DNA of 38,548 nt, from contig CABYEX010000013.1 of the NCBI GenBank assembly GCA_902518075.1, positions 1-38,548 of the forward strand. Reading direction: 5' to 3'. The translations under genes were made by a program, and so were the position numbers. Below the pieces are notes generated by a model. The model searched no databases, had not been told where the DNA came from, and worked only from the letters and a program-made list of their open reading frames with translations. This document shows positions 5,022 to 38,548 of this stretch, piece after piece. The stretch is from Halieaceae bacterium (lineage in GTDB: Bacteria > Pseudomonadota > Gammaproteobacteria > Pseudomonadales > Halieaceae). The stretch's first letter is position 1, and every line of letters starts with the position of its first letter.

Positions 5022-7430
5022 TCAAAAAATCTGTTCCAGGTTTTTCGCATCAATAGAGCCACCTGAGTCTGTGTCCCAGTCCGGGAGAGATTCCTCGAGA
5101 AAGTACTCCATCACACTGCCCTCGGGTTGTCCCCTTACCCGCATGCCGGACTCCCGGTCGACGCGAAGCCGGACTATGCCGGGCGGCATGGGCGGGGGCG
5201 GTTGCGCAGGAGGCAGTGCCTCGCGCACGTAGTCGATCCAGATGGGTAGTGCTGCGGTGCCACCAAACTCGCGACGCCCCAGAGGCCCGTAATCGTCAAA
5301 GCCCACCCAGGCCGTTGTAATCAGGTCGCGATTGAAACCCGAGAACCACGCGTCCCGCGGGCCATTGGTGGTGCCAGTCTTGCCGGAGATGTCCTGCCGG
5401 TCGAGCACCCGCGCGCGACGGCCTGTACCGCGCTGGATGGCATCGTTGAGAAAAGAGGAAATGATGAAGGCGACCCGGGGGTCCATGACCCGGTCGGCAG
5501 CGCGCACCTCGGGCACTGCCGTGCCTAATATATCTTCCATCCGCATTTCCTCGGGCTCGTTGCCCTCGGCATAGGCGCACTCGGCACACGCCACCAGTGG
5601 ATCGGCAGCGTAAACGATCTCACCTTTTGCGTTTTCAATGCGCTCAATCAGCCAGGGCTCCACCCTGAAGCCCTCATTGGCCAAGATGGCGTAGCCTGTC
5701 GCGATCTCGAGCGGGGTATAAGTATGCGTGCCGAGGGCGAGGGTCAGATTGGCCTGTATGTCCTCGGTATCAAACCCCAGGCCTTCTACGTAGCGTATGA
5801 AGCGCCGCACGCCGATGCGTTGCAGCACCCTGATCGAGACAAGATTGCGCGAGAAGGTCAGCGCCTCGCGAAGCCGTGTCGGCCCATAAAATTTCCCGCT
5901 GTCGTTTTCTGGCCGCCAGATTTCCGCAGCAGAAAGGTTGTCGAGTACCACCGGCGCATCGTTAATGACCGTGGAGGGCGTAACGCCTGCTTCCAATGCG
6001 CTGGCATACAGAAACGGTTTGAAGTTTGAGCCCGGCTGGCGTTTTGCCTGAGTCGCACGGTTAAATTTGGACAACTCGAAGCCCATGCCGCCGACCAGAG
6101 CCCGGATGGCGCCATGCTTGGGGTCTAGCGATACAAGCGCGGATTGCGCCTTGGGGACCTGCGTGAGCCGCCATCCCTCATCCGTCTCGCGGACGCGAAT
6201 CAGATCACCCGGGGCCAGCAGTGCTGTTGGCGTTTTCTCGGGCGCCGCAGTTTGGTTTACCGATCGATACTGTCGCACTTTCTCAAGGTCTCCCTCCCAT
6301 GACAGGGCGATAGCATCGCCTGACTTGAGCAGCACCGATGCTGCCTCGTCCCCAATCGCAGTGACGATGCCGGGTGGCAGCTCAGCGATGGTTGGCATGT
6401 TGCGCAGCGCTTCTTGCCAGCGCCCGAGGGTTTCCTCAGGTGACTCACCCTCGCGGGGTGCAAGGCGTCGCTCCGGCCCACGCCAGCCGTGCCGCCAGTC
6501 GTAGGTTCTCAGTCCGCTGAGCAGCGCATCGTGGGCGGCTTGCTGTAGTTCGGCCTCAACCGTGGTGTAGACCACATAGCCGTCGTTATAGGCGGCATTG
6601 CCGAAGCGCTCGACCATTTCACGACGGACCATCTCGGCGATGTAATCGGCGTCGACTTCAACAACTTGCCCATAAAAAGAGGCGGTGACGGGAGTATTTG
6701 TTGCGGCAAGCTGTTCAGTCTCATTGATCATGCCGAGATTCGCCATGCGACCCAAAATCCAGTCCCGGCGGATCTTGCCTTTTTCAGGGTTGCTCAACGG
6801 GTTGTTGCGCGATGGCGCTTTCGGCACACCCGCAAGCATCGCGTGCTGTGCGAGCGTGAGCTCCGCGAGGGGTTTCCCGTAGTAGGTCTCGGCCGCGGCC
6901 TCAAATCCATAGGCGCGATGACCGAGGAAGACCCGGTTGACGTACAGCTCAAAAATTTCCTCTTTGCTGAGTCGGGCCTCAATCTGAAATGCCAACAGGA
7001 TTTCGGTGAACTTCCTGAGGAAGGTCTGATCCAGCGTCAGAAAATAGTTCCTGGCTACCTGCATTGTCAGCGTGGAGCCACCACTGCCTTTTTTGCCGGT
7101 GAGTAATAACTCCCATACCGCCCTTATCAGGCTTAGCGGTTCGATACCACCGTGCTTGAAAAAGCCGTCGTCCTCTGCAGCCAAGAGTGCATCGATGAAG
7201 CTTTGCGGGATCTGTTCGAATTGCAGCGGCTTGCGCTTTTGTTCCCCGAACTGCCCGATCAGTGCGCCATCGCGGCTGAGCACACGCATGGGGGTGCGCA
7301 AGGTGATGTTGCGGAGCGCACTTTCCTCTGGGAGGTTTGGGCTGAGATAGAGGTAAAGCCCTGCCAGCCACCAGATTGCCGCACAGGCTATCAGCGCGCT
7401 ACATCGCATCACTTTCTTGGCTTTTGGCAC
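5022..7430 (-). CDS. mrcA: Penicillin-binding protein 1A (class A bifunctional)
   Basis: An 802-residue peptidoglycan glycosyltransferase/DD-transpeptidase in the periplasm, anchored by one helix (about 9-30). The GT51 domain shows the catalytic Glu86 in AAEDDGFF and the GSTLTMQ motif. An OB-like insertion follows. The transpeptidase has the acyl-ester serine in GSNFK (Ser468, Lys471), SRN as the SxN motif, and KTGT beginning at Lys684. The proposed start is GTG at 7430 with GGAGAG seven bases upstream; an ATG seven codons in is the alternative. In Pseudomonas-type genomes this gene is divergent from pilMNOPQ-aroKB; here aroK follows directly across a 297-base gap with no pil genes. Confidence 0.96.
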   Translation of the reverse strand: MPKAKKVMRCSALIACAAIWWLAGLYLYLSPNLPEESALRNITLRTPMRVLSRDGALIGQFGEQKRKPLQFEQIPQSFIDALLAAEDDGFFKHGGIEPLSLIRAVWELLLTGKKGSGGSTLTMQVARNYFLTLDQTFLRKFTEILLAFQIEARLSKEEIFELYVNRVFLGHRAYGFEAAAETYYGKPLAELTLAQHAMLAGVPKAPSRNNPLSNPEKGKIRRDWILGRMANLGMINETEQLAATNTPVTASFYGQVVEVDADYIAEMVRREMVERFGNAAYNDGYVVYTTVEAELQQAAHDALLSGLRTYDWRHGWRGPERRLAPREGESPEETLGRWQEALRNMPTIAELPPGIVTAIGDEAASVLLKSGDAIALSWEGDLEKVRQYRSVNQTAAPEKTPTALLAPGDLIRVRETDEGWRLTQVPKAQSALVSLDPKHGAIRALVGGMGFELSKFNRATQAKRQPGSNFKPFLYASALEAGVTPSTVINDAPVVLDNLSAAEIWRPENDSGKFYGPTRLREALTFSRNLVSIRVLQRIGVRRFIRYVEGLGFDTEDIQANLTLALGTHTYTPLEIATGYAILANEGFRVEPWLIERIENAKGEIVYAADPLVACAECAYAEGNEPEEMRMEDILGTAVPEVRAADRVMDPRVAFIISSFLNDAIQRGTGRRARVLDRQDISGKTGTTNGPRDAWFSGFNRDLITTAWVGFDDYGPLGRREFGGTAALPIWIDYVREALPPAQPPPPMPPGIVRLRVDRESGMRVRGQPEGSVMEYFLEESLPDWDTDSGGSIDAKNLEQIF

Positions 7431-9492: not shown

Positions 9493-15445
<5,953 letters not shown>

Positions 15446-21146: not shown

Positions 21147-23102
21147 ATGGAACTGACACTGGATCAAGCTTTACAGCAAGCTGTAGTGGCACACAGGGAA
21201 GGTAAGCTCCAAGATGCTGAACGCCTTTACCGTGCCATCCTAAAGACGCAACCCAACCATCCTGATGCCAATCACAATCTGGGTGTATTGGCTGTTGCTG
21301 TGGACAAACCGTTAGAGGCATTACCATTTTTTAAGCAAGCATTGGATGCCAATCCGCAGATAGAGCAGTTTTGGTTGAGCTATATCGATGCATTGGTCAA
21401 ATCTCAGCGTTTTGAACAGGCAACGCGAGTTATTGTGGATGCGACAGAGAATGGTGTGGCCGCGGATAAGCTCGACACTGTCACAAAGCAACTACCGCAA
21501 GCCCAGGCAAACGGTACTAAAAAAGCCGATCAGCATGTCGCGCCTTCAAAAAGTAAAGAAGGGCGCGCCGCTGGGAAAAGAGGTAGCGTTCGTAAGGCGA
21601 GCGGCTCCCTAACTACTGTTGAACCGCCGCAGAGAATGGTGAATAACTTGCTACAAAATTATCAAGCTGGGCGAATTCACGAGGCTGAGCAACTAGCAGC
21701 ATCAATGACGGAGGAGTTCCCGCAAAGTCCCCTTGGCTGGAAGGTTCTAGGATCAATAAAGAGACAAACGGGAAGACTAAAAGAGTCTATGGCCCTCTTT
21801 GAAAAATGTCTCTCGTTAGCTCCAAGGGATGCAGAATCTATGGCTAACCTCGGTAACGTTTTTAGACAGCTGGGAAGGTTAGCTGACGCAGAGATAAGTT
21901 ATAGCCAAGCGTTAAGCATAAAAGACGATGTTGCAGAATTTCACAGCAATCTAGGGCTTGTGCTGGAGGAGCTGGGCAGATTAGATGAAGCTGAGAGAAG
22001 CCATCGACGCGCCATAGCTTTGAAGCCTAACTTGTCTCAAGGGCACTATAACTTAGGAGTTACACTCAAAAAGCTTGGGCGATTAACCGAAGCTGCATCG
22101 AGCTATTCCCGAGCAGTAGAATTGAGGCCTGAGGATGCAAGAGCGCATTTTAACTTGGGTAATACACTCAAACTGCTTGGGAATAGCGAGGAGGCTGAGG
22201 CTTGTTATACGCGAGCGATTTCTTTAGATCCCGAATCTCACAAGGCGTTAAGTGGCCGAAGTTATTTGTTGTTGGAGAAAGGAGAATATGAAGCCGCGCT
22301 GGAGGACGCTGACGCATGTAAATTAAGCAAAAAGCATAAGGTACTTCCCTTGGCAGCGTTATTTGGCTTGGGACGCATAGACGAAGTATATGAGAGGTTG
22401 GCGATTCATTCAAAGGTAGACCCTGAGAATATCAGTCTGGCCGCTTTCTCAGCCTTTATATCTAAAGTAGACGGAAGAGCCACCAGATATAACTTTTGCC
22501 CGGACCCCTTGGAATTTATACACCTCGCGAACCTGTCTTCTCATGTGTCTGACTCAGGCGCTTACGTGGAGGATCTTATTGAAGAGCTGAATGAAGTGGA
22601 GACTAGTTGGGAGCCTCTAGGAAAAACTACAGTGGGGGGCTTTCAATCATCCCATGAAGTTAATTTATTCAAAAACCCTACCCCAAAAATCGCTCTCCTA
22701 AAGTCGATCATTGTTAGTGAGATAGAGGCGTATCTGTTGGAATATAGAGATGAACGCTGCCTTTTCATTAAAAATTTTCCAAACACCCGTAACCTTCGAG
22801 GCTGGACTGTCACGCTAAAGCAGCAAGGGCACCAGAAGTCACATATTCACCCCAACGGATGGTTAAGTGGAGTTATATATTTAAAGGTTGTCCCATCTCT
22901 AGGCAAAAATGAGGGGGCAATAGAGTTTAGCTTGAACGGCACGCATTATCGTGACGATAACAGCCCTGAAGCTACAATACTGCCAAATTCAGGGGATTTG
23001 ATTCTTTTTCCGTCGTCGCTTCATCACAAAACAATTCCTTTTACGACGAATTCGGAGCGGATGATTGTCTCATTCGATCTAACGCCAAGAACCTCCGATT
23101 AA
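21147..23102 (+). CDS. TPR protein with C-terminal 2OG-Fe(II) oxygenase-like domain
   Basis: 651 residues. The N-terminal module MELTLDQALQQAV is shared with the next TPR gene, and a low-complexity linker (about 115-165) follows. About seven 34-residue TPR units run from 170 to 400, with the family consensus NLGxxLxxLGRLxEAExxYxRAI. The C-terminal 200 residues resemble the putative 2-oxoglutarate/Fe(II) oxygenase family (TIGR02466 type). HIHPNGWLSGVIYL carries His566 and His568, FPSSLHHKTIPF carries His626/627, and an Arg follows in SERMIVSFDL. The likely job is hydroxylating a protein or small substrate presented by the TPR arm; the substrate is unknown. Base composition is clearly more AT-rich than the housekeeping genes. 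Confidence 0.85.
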   Translation: MELTLDQALQQAVVAHREGKLQDAERLYRAILKTQPNHPDANHNLGVLAVAVDKPLEALPFFKQALDANPQIEQFWLSYIDALVKSQRFEQATRVIVDATENGVAADKLDTVTKQLPQAQANGTKKADQHVAPSKSKEGRAAGKRGSVRKASGSLTTVEPPQRMVNNLLQNYQAGRIHEAEQLAASMTEEFPQSPLGWKVLGSIKRQTGRLKESMALFEKCLSLAPRDAESMANLGNVFRQLGRLADAEISYSQALSIKDDVAEFHSNLGLVLEELGRLDEAERSHRRAIALKPNLSQGHYNLGVTLKKLGRLTEAASSYSRAVELRPEDARAHFNLGNTLKLLGNSEEAEACYTRAISLDPESHKALSGRSYLLLEKGEYEAALEDADACKLSKKHKVLPLAALFGLGRIDEVYERLAIHSKVDPENISLAAFSAFISKVDGRATRYNFCPDPLEFIHLANLSSHVSDSGAYVEDLIEELNEVETSWEPLGKTTVGGFQSSHEVNLFKNPTPKIALLKSIIVSEIEAYLLEYRDERCLFIKNFPNTRNLRGWTVTLKQQGHQKSHIHPNGWLSGVIYLKVVPSLGKNEGAIEFSLNGTHYRDDNSPEATILPNSGDLILFPSSLHHKTIPFTTNSERMIVSFDLTPRTSD

Positions 23103-23629
23103 CATGGCTCATAAGCAGTCGCTAATTTGATTATTTTGAAGTAGGCCTCATATTGCAAGTCTTCGCCTGACTAAGCTTTCCCATAAAAAAACACCGCAAA
23201 AAACTTAGGCTCTAACACATAACTAGCACTAACCGCTTGCATGTTGGAGAGGCGATTTGACCACAGAAGTTTTGCAATTCCCGCACCATAGAAGCCAAGT
23301 AATCAAGTCATAATTAGAGACTGCCAAGGGTTTTAAAGACACTCCGCCAGAGACGTGCATAGCTATCCAGAGACAAGTTATCGCGATGATGTTTTGTGGG
23401 AGGTCGGTCAGTCAGTCTAGAACTACCTCCTATGCGGCTATGAATGCGATGTCTGAAAAGAGCTGCTAACTGCCGTGGAAGTTGTGATGGTTAATGCCAA
23501 GAGATATTCAGATCTGCGTCAAGACCCGCCGTCCTCCCATTCTTTTCAACGTATGCGGAAAGAAAGTAGTCTTTGCCTTATGGTTGCCTGATGGTGTTAC
23601 CGTCGCCGGCAAGGGCTTGAGTAATTCAA
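23103..23629. other. Intergenic region between the two TPR genes
   Basis: 527 bases, AT-rich, no convincing ORF of its own. It contains a short inverted repeat GGAGGT/ACCTCC (23399-23404 and 23425-23430). In its last 170 bases it carries the second copy of the leader. A 64-codon frame at 23494-23688 overlaps the TPR start; the equivalent frame in copy A is broken by stops, so I do not call it a gene. Confidence 0.45.
23460..23629 (+). repeat. Duplicated TPR-gene leader, copy B
   Basis: The counterpart of 20976-21146. Similarity begins around GAAAAG and runs into the coding region, where about 90 codons also match closely. The stop-to-start distance differs by only one base (38 versus 39), so the whole block was duplicated together. 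Confidence 0.7.
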
Positions 23630-25801
23630 ATGGAACTGACACTGGATCAAGCTTTACAGCAAGCCGTTGCGGCACACAGGGAAGGTAAGCTCCAAGATGC
23701 GGAGCACTTGTACCGTGCCATTCTTCAGTCACAACCCAACCACTCTGATGCTAATCACAATCTGGGTGTATTGGCTCTTGCCATGGGGAAGCCGTTAGAG
23801 GCAATACCATTGTTTAAGCTTGCGTTAAACGCCAATCCTGCGATCGACCAGTTCTGGCTAAGCTACATTGATGCGCTAATAAAAATGAAGCGATGTAGTG
23901 ACGCTAAGCAGGTAATGTGTGACGCAGAGCAGTCTGGTGTTCCTGCAGAAAAGCTCGGGGGCCTTAAACAGAGGCTAGAGGGCAGACAATCGGATGACAC
24001 TAATCAGATCGCAACGGACCAAATGCGCTCTGAGAAAGAAAACGCCGAGGTGGTTGTGGCACCGTCAAAGGAACAACTCAGTTGGCTGCGGAAAACTTAT
24101 GAAGCCGGTAATTTCAGTGAAGCGGAGAAGGTGGCGGGGTCACTGACCGAGATGTTTCCTCAACACCCATTTGGATGGAAGGTTCTGGGTGCTGTTTTCA
24201 ATCAAACGGGCAGATTTGATGAAGCGCTGATGCCCATGCAAAAATCAGTAGAGTTATCGCCTCAGGATGCCGAGGCCCACAACAACTTGGGTATCACTCT
24301 TCAAGAACTAGGCAGGCTAGACGAGGTCGAAGCAACCCATAGACAAGCGATAGCTTTGAAGCCTGACTACGCCGAAGCTCACTTCAATTTGGGTATCACA
24401 CTTCAAGAACTAGGTAGGTTAGACGAGGCTGAAGTAAGCTATACACGAGCCATAACCCTCAAGCCTGACTATGCCGAAGCGCACAACAATTTGGGTAACA
24501 CGCTCCAAGAGCTGGGCAGGCTAGACGAGGCTGAAGCAAGCCTTACAGAGGCAATGACTCTAAGGCCTGATTCAGCTGAAGCTCACAACAATCTAGGTAA
24601 TACGCTTAAAGAGTTAGGCAGGTTAGACTTGGCTGAAGCAAGCTACAGGCAGGCTATATATTTAAAGCCTGACTATGCCGACGCTCACTGCAACTTGGGT
24701 GTTACGCTCCAAGATTTGGGCAGGTCAGACGAGGCTGAAGCAAGTTATCGACAAGCGATAGCGCTGAAGCCTGATTATGCCGAAGCTCACCATAATTTGG
24801 CGACCGCGAAAAAATTTTCACTACAAGACGAACAGTTTGTTCAGATGAAGGCGCTTTATCGTGATCGAACTATTTCTGAGGACCAGCACTGCCACATTTG
24901 CTTTGCCTTGGCAAAGGCCTCCGATGATATCGGTGAACTGATTAATGCTTTTGAGTTTTACGCAGAAGGAAATGCACTCCGAAAAAAACAATTGCATTAT
25001 CACAAAGCGCAAGACAAGAAGTTATTTGAGAAGCTGAAAGCCTATTACCCACACATAGCTGCGAATCCACTCGGGGCGGAGATTGCTAGCCCCGAGCACA
25101 TTCCTATTTTTATAGTAGGTATGCCTCGCTCCGGCACGACATTGGTAGAGCAAATCATTTCATCACATCTTTTGGTTACGGGCGCAGGAGAGCTGCCCTT
25201 TGTATCTCAATTTGGCCGTTCACTGGCGGTTGGCCAAACCCGAGTAAATAGGGAGATTTTAAGGGCGTTCAGAGAGCAGTATCTGCAAGCCCTGCAGGCG
25301 CGCTCGAAGGGCAACACTATTGTCACAGATAAAATGCCTCAGAATTTTCGGTTTTTGGGGTTAATCGCAGCGGCTTTGCCAGAGGCAAAAATTATTCATG
25401 TCCAAAGAGATCCAGCGGCAGTGTGCTGGTCAAACTACACGCAATATTTTGTAAAAAACAACTTGAGCTACTGCTACAGCCTTGAGGACATCTTGCATTA
25501 TCAAGGGCTTTACGAGGACCTTATGAAATTCTGGCGTCACGCGCTTCCCGGCAGAGTATATGATCTTGACTATGAGTGTTTAACACAAGACCAAGAATCA
25601 GAGAGCCGCAAGCTCATCGAGCATTTGGAGCTGACTTGGGATGACCGCTGCTTATCGCCGCAAGACAATCAGAGATGGATTTCCACGGCTTCCAACATGC
25701 AAGCCAGAAAAAAAGTTTATCAAGGAAGCTCTAGCCGCTGGAGGCGTTACCTGCCCTACCTTGATGGGGCTTTTGATCATTTAAGTATCCGCGACAAATG
25801 A
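23630..25801 (+). CDS. TPR-repeat sulfotransferase
   Basis: 723 residues. The N-terminal 115 residues are nearly those of the preceding gene, and a linker follows. TPR units of exactly 34 residues run from about 200 to 390. The C-terminal sulfotransferase domain (about 490-715) has the 5'-phosphosulfate loop of PAPS binding in GMPRSGTTLVEQ (Arg500-Thr504) and the 3'-phosphate motif in VQRDPAAVCWSNY (Arg593). It should transfer sulfate from PAPS to a polysaccharide, lipid or protein. Proteins of this layout are common in marine gammaproteobacteria, but their substrates are mostly unknown. No signal peptide is seen, so it is cytoplasmic. Confidence 0.9.
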   Translation: MELTLDQALQQAVAAHREGKLQDAEHLYRAILQSQPNHSDANHNLGVLALAMGKPLEAIPLFKLALNANPAIDQFWLSYIDALIKMKRCSDAKQVMCDAEQSGVPAEKLGGLKQRLEGRQSDDTNQIATDQMRSEKENAEVVVAPSKEQLSWLRKTYEAGNFSEAEKVAGSLTEMFPQHPFGWKVLGAVFNQTGRFDEALMPMQKSVELSPQDAEAHNNLGITLQELGRLDEVEATHRQAIALKPDYAEAHFNLGITLQELGRLDEAEVSYTRAITLKPDYAEAHNNLGNTLQELGRLDEAEASLTEAMTLRPDSAEAHNNLGNTLKELGRLDLAEASYRQAIYLKPDYADAHCNLGVTLQDLGRSDEAEASYRQAIALKPDYAEAHHNLATAKKFSLQDEQFVQMKALYRDRTISEDQHCHICFALAKASDDIGELINAFEFYAEGNALRKKQLHYHKAQDKKLFEKLKAYYPHIAANPLGAEIASPEHIPIFIVGMPRSGTTLVEQIISSHLLVTGAGELPFVSQFGRSLAVGQTRVNREILRAFREQYLQALQARSKGNTIVTDKMPQNFRFLGLIAAALPEAKIIHVQRDPAAVCWSNYTQYFVKNNLSYCYSLEDILHYQGLYEDLMKFWRHALPGRVYDLDYECLTQDQESESRKLIEHLELTWDDRCLSPQDNQRWISTASNMQARKKVYQGSSSRWRRYLPYLDGAFDHLSIRDK
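24269..24778 (+). repeat. Five tandem 102-bp TPR-coding repeats
   Basis: Near-identical DNA units of exactly 102 bases begin at 24269, 24371, 24473, 24575 and 24677, each encoding one TPR of the AEAHxNLGxTLQELGRLDEA type. A partial sixth unit follows. The nucleotide-level similarity implies recent unit duplication or gene conversion, and repeat number could vary between strains. Confidence 0.85.
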
Positions 25802-35710: not shown

Positions 35711-36058
35711 ATGATTATTGTGGTTGCAGCGCTGGAATTTGCCAGCCAATTCGATCGAGATGAGGCGGTGGCGCTTGTCGCAGATGTGCAGCGATTGACC
35801 CGTGAGGAAGAGCCGGGTTGTCACGATTACTGTTTTGCGCCTGACCCGGCTGTGCCCACGCGTATGCAGGTCTATGAGTTATGGGAGGACAGCGACAGTC
35901 TGGCGGCGCATTTCGAGCACCCTTATTACGAGCAAATGGCGAGCTTGCTCCGCGGTGTGGGGTTTGTGAGCAGCACCAATCAGGCCTATCTCATCGAACG
36001 GGGCGAACCAGTCTATACTGAGGATGGTGGCAAAAAGACGGCGTTTTTTCAGGATTGA
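35711..36058 (+). CDS. Antibiotic-biosynthesis-monooxygenase (ABM) fold protein
   Basis: 115 residues with the dimeric ferredoxin-like ABM pattern. A first strand (MIIVVAALEF) is followed by a helix and RLTREEEPGCHDYCFAPDP. Then come VYELWEDSDSLAAHFEHPYYEQM, the hallmark E-x-W and H-x-x-x-x-Y residues, and a last strand. Such proteins are cofactor-free oxygenases or heme-binding proteins such as quinol monooxygenase YgiN; the substrate is unknown. A GGAGAG and AAG precede the ATG. Its 3' end abuts the remnant of a TPR gene on the other strand. Confidence 0.85.
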   Translation: MIIVVAALEFASQFDRDEAVALVADVQRLTREEEPGCHDYCFAPDPAVPTRMQVYELWEDSDSLAAHFEHPYYEQMASLLRGVGFVSSTNQAYLIERGEPVYTEDGGKKTAFFQD

Positions 36059-36361
36059 CGGAGCCGCCTCGATGGCTAGGTCATAGCACGCTACTGCGTC
36101 CTGTTCGCGATCCATCTGTCGGTAGAGATTGCCTAGGTTGGTGACAACGGCTGGTGCAGGATGTAGGTCAATCGATTGTTTGAAGGCGACCTCGGCGCCG
36201 GCCGGGTCTAGCTGCCCCTTGCTTGCCAGAGCAATAAATTGCCACACATCAGCTTCCGTTGCTGACTGGTTTAGCAGGGGTGTGAGCAACACTTCAGCAT
36301 CGGCGTGTTGGTTGCCTTGAATCTAGCCGATTGCCTGATTCAGCTGTTCCGCGGTCGCCAT
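36059..36361 (-). pseudogene. Truncated TPR gene
   Basis: On the minus strand ATG 36361 begins MATAEQLNQAIG, followed by an in-frame TAG (36323-36325). The frame then continues IQGNQHADAEVLLTPLLNQ. A TPR motif follows (DPAGAEVAFKQSIDLHPAPAVVTNLGNLYRQMDREQDAVACYDLAIEAAP), after which the sequence runs into the antisense of the ABM gene. The TPR consensus is the same type as the large TPR genes at 21147-25801. A nonsense codon and loss of the 3' half make it a dead fragment, probably left by a deletion. Confidence 0.7.
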
Positions 36362-36511
36362 CTAGTCGCCTCTCATCAGCACGAATCCACGCTTAAAACC
36401 TGACCCAGATGGTCTCACAGGGCGTAATCCGCTGCATAATGCAACCTCCGGCATGCTGGGTGCTGGGTCTTTCAAACTGCTGCTATGCGCTGTCAGCTGA
36501 GATAGAAAAAT

Positions 36512-37378
36512 ATGAAATCTATTGCCCAATATCCCATGCTGATGGCAACGCTGGGCATCATGCTCTTTTCCATGATGGATGCAGTCATGAAGGGGCAGGC
36601 GCTGGCGATAGGTACTTACAACGCTATGTTTTGGCGCATGGCCATGGGGGCGTTGATCGTGGCGGTGCTGTACCTACCTACGCGCCCCTTACCAGCGTCG
36701 GGGCGAGTGCTGAAAATCCATCTGATTCGGGCCGCACTGACGGCGGTCATGGCTTATTTGTTCTTTTTCGGCCTGACGCGCATCCCACTGGCACAAGCGA
36801 TCGGTCTATCGTTTATCGCCCCCATCATCACGCTGTTTCTGGCGGTGCCCATTCTGGGTGAGCGCATCGGTGCCAATGCCAAGCTCGCTGCGTTGCTGGG
36901 CTTTGGCGGTGTCATGGTGGTTGTCGGCGGCGAGCTACTGGCAGTCGATAAGGGCAGCGATGCGGCGGGTATGGCCGCGGTGCTGCTCTCGGCAGTGATG
37001 TATGCCTTTAACTTGGTGTTACAGCGCATGCAAGCGTTGGTGGCGAGACCGCTCGAGATAGCCTTTTATCAAAACACCATCGTGTTCCTAATGCTCTTAG
37101 TTGGCGTGCCATTCGCCGTCTCATGGCCCGAGACTTCCTATCAGTGGGGCGGCGCGTCGTTGGCGGCAGGTCTCGCGGTGGGCTCGCTGATGCTGATGTC
37201 ACTGGCGTACCGGCAGGCCGAGGCGCAGCGGCTGGTCGTAATCGAATACACCGCGTTTATTTGGGCGGCGATGTTGGGGTGGTGGTTTTTCGCCGAGCCG
37301 GTCACAGCGCGCATCGCTTTGGGTACCGGCTTGATTGTGCTGGGCTGCTTAGTGAGCGCCCGGGGCGGCAGTCGCTAG
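36512..37378 (+). CDS. EamA-family (DMT superfamily) transporter
   Basis: 288 residues with about ten predicted membrane helices in two EamA halves. The first half starts YPMLMATLGIMLFSMMDAVMKG; the second contains QNTIVFLMLLVGVPFAV and ends GLIVLGCLVSARGGS. The motif FIAPIITLFLAVPILGERIG at the end of the first half is typical of RhaT/EamA permeases. It exports or imports an unknown small metabolite. It converges on the TerB-like gene. Confidence 0.93.
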   Translation: MKSIAQYPMLMATLGIMLFSMMDAVMKGQALAIGTYNAMFWRMAMGALIVAVLYLPTRPLPASGRVLKIHLIRAALTAVMAYLFFFGLTRIPLAQAIGLSFIAPIITLFLAVPILGERIGANAKLAALLGFGGVMVVVGGELLAVDKGSDAAGMAAVLLSAVMYAFNLVLQRMQALVARPLEIAFYQNTIVFLMLLVGVPFAVSWPETSYQWGGASLAAGLAVGSLMLMSLAYRQAEAQRLVVIEYTAFIWAAMLGWWFFAEPVTARIALGTGLIVLGCLVSARGGSR

Positions 37379-37421
37379 GCAGAGTGTGCGTAACGGGGGT
37401 CTGCTGTGCCGACAGCCAAGA

Positions 37422-37862
37422 TCACATCGCGCTTTGCTTGGCTGCAATAAAGTCACTGTGTGGTAAGTACAGCAGGTCTGCGACTTTACGTATCACGTGC
37501 TCCTCGTACTGACTCAATGCGTTATCCGCCATCGCCACCCGCCACATCATGGCCAGCAAATTACGCTTCTGCTCAGCCGATGCCAGCTCATTTAAGGTGC
37601 GGGTGAATTCAAAAAGGCAGGTGGCAGCGTCCGCCTGTTCAACCGCGACTTCGGTGATGGTGGAGACTTCGTCAGCGCTGAGACTGAACTGCTCTGTGAG
37701 CTGCGTAGTGACTGCCTCTTGTTCTATCGCCTCGACTGCAAAATCGGCCCGCGCCACCTCAAACATGAGGGCTGCGCAGGCGAGTTCCAGCGCACGGTGT
37801 TCGACTCCATTTGTCGCCGTGCCTTGCTTCCCAAGCAGATCCTTGAGTTTTTTGAGCAGCAT
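37422..37862 (-). CDS. TerB-like tellurite-resistance-family protein
   Basis: 146 residues, all-helical and soluble. The core LACAALMFEVARADFAVEAIEQEAV and NLLAMMWRVAMADNALSQYEEHVIRKVADLL show the TerB/TerB-like signatures (acidic helix pair with DN-x-L-x-x-E-E). Proteins of this family are mostly of unknown function; the name does not imply tellurite resistance. It is 18 bases from the end of the following small membrane-protein gene on the same strand. Confidence 0.85.
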   Translation of the reverse strand: MLLKKLKDLLGKQGTATNGVEHRALELACAALMFEVARADFAVEAIEQEAVTTQLTEQFSLSADEVSTITEVAVEQADAATCLFEFTRTLNELASAEQKRNLLAMMWRVAMADNALSQYEEHVIRKVADLLYLPHSDFIAAKQSAM

Positions 37863-37880
37863 ATGAGGTGTTGTCAGGAT

Positions 37881-38276
37881 CTACCGGAAGACAGAGTGTG
37901 TGTTGTGTCGTCGAATGGCTGAGGCGGTGAATAAAGCAACAATCAAGACAATACATTCTCCAGTAATTTCATCGGGCGTCCAGGCGCCGCCATGGGTGGT
38001 AGCGGATAAAACGCGACCGGGGATGACCAGCCCGACCAACAGACCGCCTGATATCACCAGGGCAGCGTGGCTTCGGACAGCCCCCAGCGCCAAAAGTCCA
38101 CCGGCGCCAATAAAAAATGCCCCCGAGTCGCCAATTTGGGTGCTACGGCCGGTGCCGTCCAGCAGACTGGCACCGAGTATTTCCGCTGCGGTAGCCGGTT
38201 GCAGCCACCAGATAATGCCAACGAGCAAAAGCCCCAGGCCGGACAGGGTTGTAAGGATTCGTAGTAAGGTCAGCAT
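37881..38276 (-). CDS. Small four-helix membrane protein
   Basis: 131 residues from the ATG at 38276 (GAGG eight bases upstream). Four hydrophobic stretches are visible (about 5-22, 52-68, 74-94 and 108-124). The pattern is compatible with DUF4345-type proteins, but the match is not certain. It is transcribed away from the ubiquitin-like gene and shares the 132-base intergenic region with it. Confidence 0.7.
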   Translation of the reverse strand: MLTLLRILTTLSGLGLLLVGIIWWLQPATAAEILGASLLDGTGRSTQIGDSGAFFIGAGGLLALGAVRSHAALVISGGLLVGLVIPGRVLSATTHGGAWTPDEITGECIVLIVALFTASAIRRHNTHSVFR

Positions 38277-38394
38277 CAGGTTGTCCTCGCAGTTTGCAAA
38301 GAGATGTGTCGTACCGCCGATAACGCTTTGACGCAGTGACATACTCTCCAAACTGTGGCGGTAAATCCAGCTCTAACCGGATGGCGTCGCTAAA

Positions 38395-38411
38395 GAGAGG
38401 TCCTCCCCATT
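38395..38411 (+). promoter_or_regulatory. Ribosome-binding site with a likely ATT start
   Basis: GAGAGG (38395-38400) is followed after eight bases by ATT (38409). No ATG, GTG or TTG lies between the in-frame TAA at 38391 and GTG 38433. Starting at GTG 38433 would remove the two arginines of the signal peptide, so ATT is preferred; translation at ATT is known for infC. Confidence 0.45.
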
Positions 38412-38548
38412 AGGCGCATATCGACTATCAGTGTGAGTCTCGTGCTGAGCTTCTTATTGCTGGATCCGCTCAATGCACTGGCCTCGCAGGTTTTCGTCAA
38501 GACGCTCACGGGCAAGACTATCACTCTTGATTTGGTGCCTTCGGACAG
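38409..38548 (+). CDS. Secreted ubiquitin-like protein, truncated by the window edge
   Basis: A signal peptide (residues 1-25: basic MRRI, hydrophobic LVLSFLLL, AxA cleavage motif in NALA) leads straight into a ubiquitin N-terminus. Residues 27-46 read QVFVKTLTGKTITLDLVPSD; 16 of the 20 match residues 2-21 of eukaryotic ubiquitin. The ubiquitin residues K6 and K11, the L8 loop and F4 of the surface patch are all kept. Only I3V, E16D, V17L and E18V differ. Bacterial MoaD/ThiS-type proteins share the fold but not this identity, so origin from a eukaryote is likely. A signal-peptide ubiquitin is known in Bacteroides fragilis. The C-terminus, and thus Gly-Gly, is not in the window. Confidence 0.92.
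   Translation, partial: MRRISTISVSLVLSFLLLDPLNALASQVFVKTLTGKTITLDLVPSD

Follow-up and report, generated by a model that had tools for sequence, protein, structure and literature searches.

The window, the whole stretch of 38,548 nucleotides analysed here from a Halieaceae bacterium, ends inside a ubiquitin gene on the + strand whose visible part (38409..38548) encodes a predicted signal peptide followed directly by ubiquitin residues 1-21 and is cut at the window edge. From 38409 the + strand reads ATT AGG CGC and translates, after the ATT, as RRISTISVSLVLSFLLLDPLNALA joined to SQVFVKTLTGKTITLDLVPSD, where the window edge is reached. The predicted signal peptide covers 25 codons (38409..38483, + strand), with Arg-Arg close to the start, a hydrophobic core and the motif ALA just before the ubiquitin part, and the stretch is matched in 54 database proteins. 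The ubiquitin part (38484..38548, + strand) comprises residues 1-21 and two bases of codon 22, and differs from human ubiquitin by a Ser in place of Met1 and by I3V, E16D, V17L and E18V. At the start position (38409..38411, + strand) stands an ATT, aligned with ATG in three related genomes (G001, G095, G098) and with ATC in a fourth (G002). ATT can act as a start codon, and here it is either a rare start or a lost one. A possible ribosome-binding site, AGAGAGG (38394..38400, + strand; noted by eye), lies 8 bases 5' of the ATT, and an in-frame TAA is located upstream at 38391-38393. Comparison of the translation with the database identified a GTG (38433..38435, + strand) as the start of a 50-residue database protein, P0221.

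Human ubiquitin residues 2-21 were identical to the window translation at 38487 (+ strand) in 16 of 20 positions, compared to at most 9 of 20 in six frames of 50 shuffles of the whole window. The original prediction of a signal fused to a sequence this close to ubiquitin was therefore borne out, the K6, K11, L8 and F4 it had named were all present, and an export signal directly before a ubiquitin sequence in a gammaproteobacterium stands as a sequence-based prediction. A database search with the 46-residue fragment scored 64 candidates, 57 of them at E ≤ 1 (best E 2.7e-14), and 54 of these 57 proteins aligned over 98% or more of the query, including its signal part. No Pfam domain was found at E ≤ 1 in the 46-residue fragment alone. 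For P0221 the precomputed database table gives PF00240, a partial match; P0221 stops at residue 33, and the window copy does not have a complete ubiquitin domain (PF00240).

P0221 (VSLVLSFLLLDPLNALASQVFVKTLTGKTITLDLVPSDSIENVKAKAHDK) was found by a search with the 58-residue protein P0004 (69 proteins listed, 7991 candidates scored). It is marked in the database as encoded by the window and is carried on three contigs, the longest of 18,156 bases. Residues 1-38 correspond to the translation of the window starting at the GTG at 38433, that codon being written V, and the protein runs 12 residues past the window edge to end after ubiquitin residue 33 (K33), the end given being that of the database protein. 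A frame broken soon after the edge, named at the outset as a refutation, is what P0221 shows for this copy, its end lying 12 residues on.

The ubiquitin gene is adjoined, here and in relatives, by a divergent DUF4345-like gene (37881..38351, - strand; Pfam match below cut-off). Pfam and alignment identified two conserved neighbours, a TerB-family gene (37422..37862, - strand) and an EamA-type transporter gene (36512..37378, + strand). Among the best 80 of 184 scanned loci, the nearest named relatives of the window lineage were Luminiphilus and Halieaceae. Elsewhere in the window, positions 21147-25801 encode two adjacent TPR proteins of large size, which carry a 2OG-Fe(II) oxygenase and a sulfotransferase domain, respectively.

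Orthologues at the same site and the full-length product

Window positions 36057-38548 were aligned with four related genomes at 91.0% (G098, 2492 bp), 89.5% (G095), 82.4% (G001) and 81.9% (G002). All four hold the gene at the same site and the alignment crosses the gene start, with three more genomes (G003, G072, G090) consistent over shorter or broken contigs. Reading frames in G098 and G002 place the gene between the divergent DUF4345-like gene and a convergent gene. The closest loci among the best 80 of 184 were L005 (Gammaproteobacteria P03SWT0bin.7), L006 and L007 (Luminiphilus) and L008 (Halieaceae). Matches were present in 13 of the 140 genomes of the family to which L006's genome belongs, G072 and G090 matching in pieces only. 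Sampling of the order of L006's genome, with no more than 10 first-look candidates scored per genome, gave matches in 6 of 390 genomes.

The full-length frame has 130 residues in G001, 136 from its ATG in G003, and 132 from ATC or 150 from an upstream ATG in G002. In G095, where the end is longer, six residues were altered in the manner of compensating frame shifts that leave the frame intact (L103, around 11416-11733); the change of IPPDQQR to ILAGRIK or close variants was found in G095 and in 8 grouped database forms. The nearest genome, G098, carries two in-frame stops, one at ubiquitin codon 34 and one at codon 62. G090 lacks the ubiquitin part between the signal start and the tail but keeps the flanks (L109, around 5316-5393), and the contigs of G072 stop inside the ubiquitin part. 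The end seen in P0221 is shared by 26 further database proteins that stop at the same ubiquitin residue 33 (27 selected by that end); in 27 database proteins the short frame stays open. A looser rule gave 34 short proteins, which keep 33 ubiquitin residues in 27 cases, 30 in 4, 40 in 2 and 42 in 1. On these alignments, the window belongs as the short form to a natural one-site series of intact, frame-altered, truncated and deleted genes.

In the full-length relatives of the Halieaceae type, the signal is followed by ubiquitin up to residue 72 and a Pro-rich link; a hydrophobic stretch comes next, and several forms finish with a basic end. Thirty full-length database proteins were identical to human ubiquitin in 66-71 of 72 residues (1-6 differing). 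PF00240 was detected in the proteins of L005-L008, G022 and G116 at E 1.6e-32 to 2e-22, so the domain search suggested at the outset, negative for the 46-residue fragment, was positive for full-length relatives. The C-terminal Gly-Gly (LRGG), also to be looked for, was found in none of the L005-L007 proteins or the 30 full-length database forms. This absence is not universal, because P0030 and P0210, which have similar signals and no tail, keep LRGG. The forms in G001, G002 and G003 have a hydrophobic tail, unlike a soluble 76-residue product.

In the relatives the predicted signal runs right up to ubiquitin residue 1, as judged from sequence and a hydropathy rule alone, and export with cleavage exactly at this point is predicted. 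The modelled mature L005 protein (from G001) displayed a ubiquitin fold in which every ten-residue block up to residue 70 averaged a pLDDT above 90; a helix spanning 84-101 was modelled at lower confidence. Top matches of this model to the PDB included ubiquitin complexes, with 1ubq at rank 33 (TM 0.97 by 1ubq length). A model of the whole precursor was poor (mean pLDDT 63) and was left unused. A beta-grasp fold with one membrane helix is the predicted product, its orientation and anchoring being predicted as well.

Constraint on full-length and short forms

Among G001, G002 and G003, ubiquitin 1-72 gave dN of 0.089, 0.086 and 0.075 with dS of 2.05, 1.60 and saturated, i.e., dN/dS of approximately 0.043 and 0.054 for two pairs, the third being saturated. 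By these codon comparisons the full-length relatives are under purifying selection. The window-G098 comparison of this gene, based on 45 codons, gave dN/dS values of 0.148/0.387 for the signal and 0.163/0.230 for ubiquitin 1-21, compared to 0.015/0.232 for TerB and 0.034/0.324 for EamA as controls. The DUF4345-like neighbour (37881-38351) also had a high dN to dS against G098 (0.049/0.057), unlike TerB and EamA, and because this control ratio is high too, the window-G098 pair alone is weak. Against the other four genomes the window ubiquitin ratio was lower (0.162/0.73 with G095, 0.138/0.42 with G001).

Pairwise protein divergence was 0.156 for the signal and 0.165 for ubiquitin 1-33 in the short forms (n = 24), and 0.086 for the signal and 0.042 for ubiquitin in the full-length forms (n = 30). 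At eight ubiquitin positions that we take to be buried, departures were counted in 42 of 216 cases in short forms compared to 0 of 240 in full-length forms, and I30 was changed in 27 of 27 short forms. Within the short forms, residues 1-17 were less variable than residues 18-33. The short forms read as having a relaxed constraint on the fold, and the window copy, a truncated member without ATG and with signs of such relaxation, is probably a relic.

Exported-like ubiquitins in other lineages

A scan of prokaryote genomes gave 213 candidate stretches, 184 of which encode relatives, and the best 80 of the 184 were kept. By a hydropathy and start rule 67 of these 80 loci were exported-like; the remaining 13 include some plain or repeated ubiquitins, maybe contamination, and at least one locus cut by a contig end. 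Bacterial titles among the best 80 of 184 comprised Alpha-, Beta- and Gammaproteobacteria, Desulfobacteraceae, Bacteriovoracaceae, Bacteroidota, Verrucomicrobia, Pirellulales, Bacillota, Actinomycetota, Synergistaceae, KSB1 and cyanobacteria, and archaeal titles comprised two Methanotrichaceae. Titles without a MAG label accounted for 15 of the 67 exported-like loci, one being a complete genome, with L063 (Prochlorococcus, by its name taken as a single-cell genome) left out of the 15. Cultured bearers among the 80 loci include isolates of Neptunomonas antarctica, Dyella and Saccharibacillus.

Pfam detected PF00240 in 10 of 10 exported-like proteins scanned out of the 67, accompanied by Autotransporter in 2, SLH in 2, PEP-CTERM in 1 (L059), IPTL-CTERM in 1 (L075), a beta-helix in 1, only sub-cut-off Ig-like matches in 1, and nothing else notable in 2. 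Four loci from Dyella and Pedobacter (L044, L048, L051, L078) encode a signal and ubiquitin alone, that of Dyella sp. OK004 (L044) ending in LRGG. The archaeal loci (L018 866-5281 and L067 5027-5986; Methanothrix/Methanotrichaceae) encode a signal-like stretch, ubiquitin and long C-terminal parts, with repeats visible by eye in that of L018.

In the 63 non-Halieaceae exported-like loci (from the best 80 of 184), identity to human ubiquitin was 61-71 of 72 residues (median 66), conservation that is inflated because the search pattern and the best-80 selection favour near-identical ubiquitins. L8 and H68 were invariant in these 63 loci, residues 7-15 (L8 included) being so by construction because they are part of the search pattern; residue 44 was I in 60 and V in 3, and residue 70 was V in 57. 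LRGG was kept in 5 of the 67 exported-like loci (among the best 80 of 184). The third-position GC of the ubiquitin codons tracked the flanking GC (Pearson 0.90, Spearman 0.88; 64 of the 67 loci, three short-flanked ones dropped), which suggests genes long at home with the protein unchanged. Ser22 was present in 40 of the 67 exported-like loci compared to 45 of 177 units from mostly eukaryotic-by-name hits; this residue, which is not exclusive to exported forms, hints that the exported ubiquitins share ancestry.

With P0022 as query, 7969 candidates were scored; of 2315 matches the best 120 all had 199-231 residues and, by score and names, were polyubiquitins, uninformative on the exported family. 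A viral origin was set aside: three of four viral loci (L001, L002, L004) were ordinary ubiquitins of one to three units. The fourth (L003) had no clean reading at its match.

Interpretation and rival explanations

The join of signal and ubiquitin, the shared place, the early end (from the database protein), the lack of Gly-Gly in the same-site full-length relatives with the purifying selection on them, and the greater variation of the short forms are read from sequence, and we infer the role of the exported ubiquitin. We consider it reasonably probable that the window gene is a decaying copy of a full-length, predicted-exported, membrane-anchored ubiquitin, and that its relatives display a non-conjugable ubiquitin outward. 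In the intact relatives ubiquitin would be displayed outside the cytoplasm, with its binding face (presumably L8, I44, H68 and V70) kept and conjugation impossible. Displayed in this way, it may engage protist or host proteins that bind ubiquitin, as a ligand or a decoy, and the loss in the window lineage would reflect the loss of that encounter. The mimicry, sequestration or decoy roles first suggested are likewise hypothetical. The complete exported ubiquitin originally proposed is then not found in the window copy, where P0221 ends at residue 33, but is predicted in its orthologues and in many unrelated bacteria.

Ubiquitin is generally presented as a signal of eukaryotes. Most likely the local copy is decaying and the intact wider family is the interesting and surprising part. 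The balance tips slightly toward near-eukaryotic ubiquitin being a recurrent exported surface module, kept at its eukaryotic sequence through selection for an outside partner, of which the window would carry a copy caught decaying. That reading spans bacteria of many phyla and some archaea, with the module fused to barrels, S-layer, sorting and membrane anchors. If true, such an anchored envelope ubiquitin, present across many bacterial lineages, would suggest a common partner outside the cell, with consequences for the encounters of bacteria with protists, with hosts and among themselves.

The chief rival, which we regard as unlikely, is that the full-length relatives act as BfUbb does, poisoning bacteria of the same kind via an envelope protein, and that the window lineage has lost the gene. 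BfUbb, encoded by ubb of Bacteroides fragilis, is the closest published case found and the one bacterial secreted ubiquitin, already known as antibacterial, found in the literature. It has a signal sequence but not the two terminal glycines, shares 63% identity with human ubiquitin and can bind human E1 covalently in vitro (PMC3352274). It is secreted, its signal stops exactly in front of residue 1, and B. fragilis strains are inhibited by the synthetic 76-residue protein but not by bovine ubiquitin (PMC5705921). Sensitivity to BfUbb is reported to depend on a tyrosine of a B. fragilis peptidyl-prolyl isomerase (PMC12396204, citing Jiang et al., 2024). The full-length relatives resemble it in the signal directly before ubiquitin residue 1, the missing Gly-Gly and the patchy presence (13 of 140 family genomes), which fits a competition trait, and the only tested bacterial relative found does act on bacteria. 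We also counted as shared that BfUbb is thought to be horizontally acquired and that the available parts of PMC3352274 and PMC5705921 report no conjugation enzymes.

The two also differ, in part in ways that speak against the rival. The Bacteroides ubiquitin is a real precedent, but at 63% it is less similar to human ubiquitin than the 30 full-length clade forms (66-71 of 72), and bovine ubiquitin, unlike BfUbb, is inactive on the BfUbb targets, which speaks against such a role for forms so close to human ubiquitin. BfUbb is soluble and without a membrane tail, whereas the full-length clade forms have a predicted membrane tail and the window copy stops at 33. Its secretion and antibacterial action are demonstrated, while export of the clade forms is predicted. 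A secreted ubiquitin effector of Globodera rostochiensis likewise combines a signal peptide with a C-terminal extension, but it is made by a plant-parasitic animal, the 12-residue extension is removed in the plant, and the available part of the source mentions no membrane anchor, compared to the predicted anchor here (PMC5705921). No survey of exported or anchored ubiquitins was found among the titles listed from the open-licence PMC literature, and the available parts of PMC12751079 and PMC3482391 do not mention an exported ubiquitin of this kind.

That the short form is itself the product, an exported antimicrobial peptide of ubiquitin 1-33 (hairpin and helix), appears improbable. Antimicrobial activity is described for ubiquitin 1-18, and synergy for 1-34 with 65-76, in the available part of a review (PMC10892293), and both the exact end of 27 database proteins at residue 33 and the lower variability of positions 1-17 would suit such a peptide. 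However, the ubiquitin part of the short forms has diverged as much as the signal, with I30 changed throughout, the window start codon is altered, a second stop is present in G098, and four proteins end earlier still. The window-G098 dN of ubiquitin 1-21, set beside those of TerB and EamA at similar or higher dS, also argues against it.

We find it very improbable that ubiquitin serves envelope proteins only as a stable tip cap or spacer, as its joining to several unrelated C-terminal parts (in the 10 proteins scanned) might suggest. In 21 barrel-type proteins chosen by tail length and end, 60 of 210 pairs were alignable in their C-terminal parts, and in those 60 pairs these parts averaged 38% identity (22-94%) compared to 91% (83-99%) for ubiquitin; a spacer would not hold such identity while the attached parts diverge.

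A conjugation system with E1, E2 or JAB partners is extremely improbable. LRGG in 5 of the 67 exported-like proteins, and in P0030 and P0210, would agree with one, but the same-site full-length forms are without Gly-Gly, and the neighbour check called for at the outset found no E1, E2, JAB or deubiquitinase domain among the window's main reading frames (32 of 35 covered). Prok-JAB did not exceed the cut-off in any of 9 genomes, three of which gave weaker matches; controls matched in 8 of 14. The E2 search matched in 0 of 9 genomes but carries no weight, the controls likewise being without a match. MoaD/ThiS and the CBASS- or Bil-type ubiquitin-like proteins have a beta-grasp fold. The gene differs from these systems in its predicted export, in same-site forms without Gly-Gly and in that no E1/E2/JAB neighbours were seen among the window frames covered.

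A chimeric contig or eukaryotic contamination, to which the window edge falling inside the gene might point, can be practically dismissed: the check for an artificial bacterial-eukaryotic join found none, as the 2.5 kb alignment with four related genomes (82-91%) crosses the gene start, the ubiquitin third-position GC fits the flanks, and the exported-like titles include the 15 without a MAG label described above.

Proteins sorted by exosortase (PEP-CTERM, IPTL-CTERM) are alike in having a short Pro motif, a hydrophobic stretch and, in several forms, a basic end. They differ in that no CTERM domain above cut-off was found in the Halieaceae-type forms scanned, and exosortase sorting in the window clade was rejected, as exosortase was found in 0 of 5 same-site genomes tested, which may be incomplete. 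Overall, exosortase was found in 2 of 9 genomes (G116, G022), and a control matched in 1 of 14. The tail was not clearly common to other proteins, with extra matches only at E 0.098 (G001) and 0.37 (G095). The ubiquitin form of G022 has an IPTL-like tail, its IPTL-CTERM match (E 0.011) lying below cut-off. On contig C1 of the same genome (1286116-1292783), approximately 6 kb separate an exosortase from a protein whose tail is weakly similar (E 0.975).
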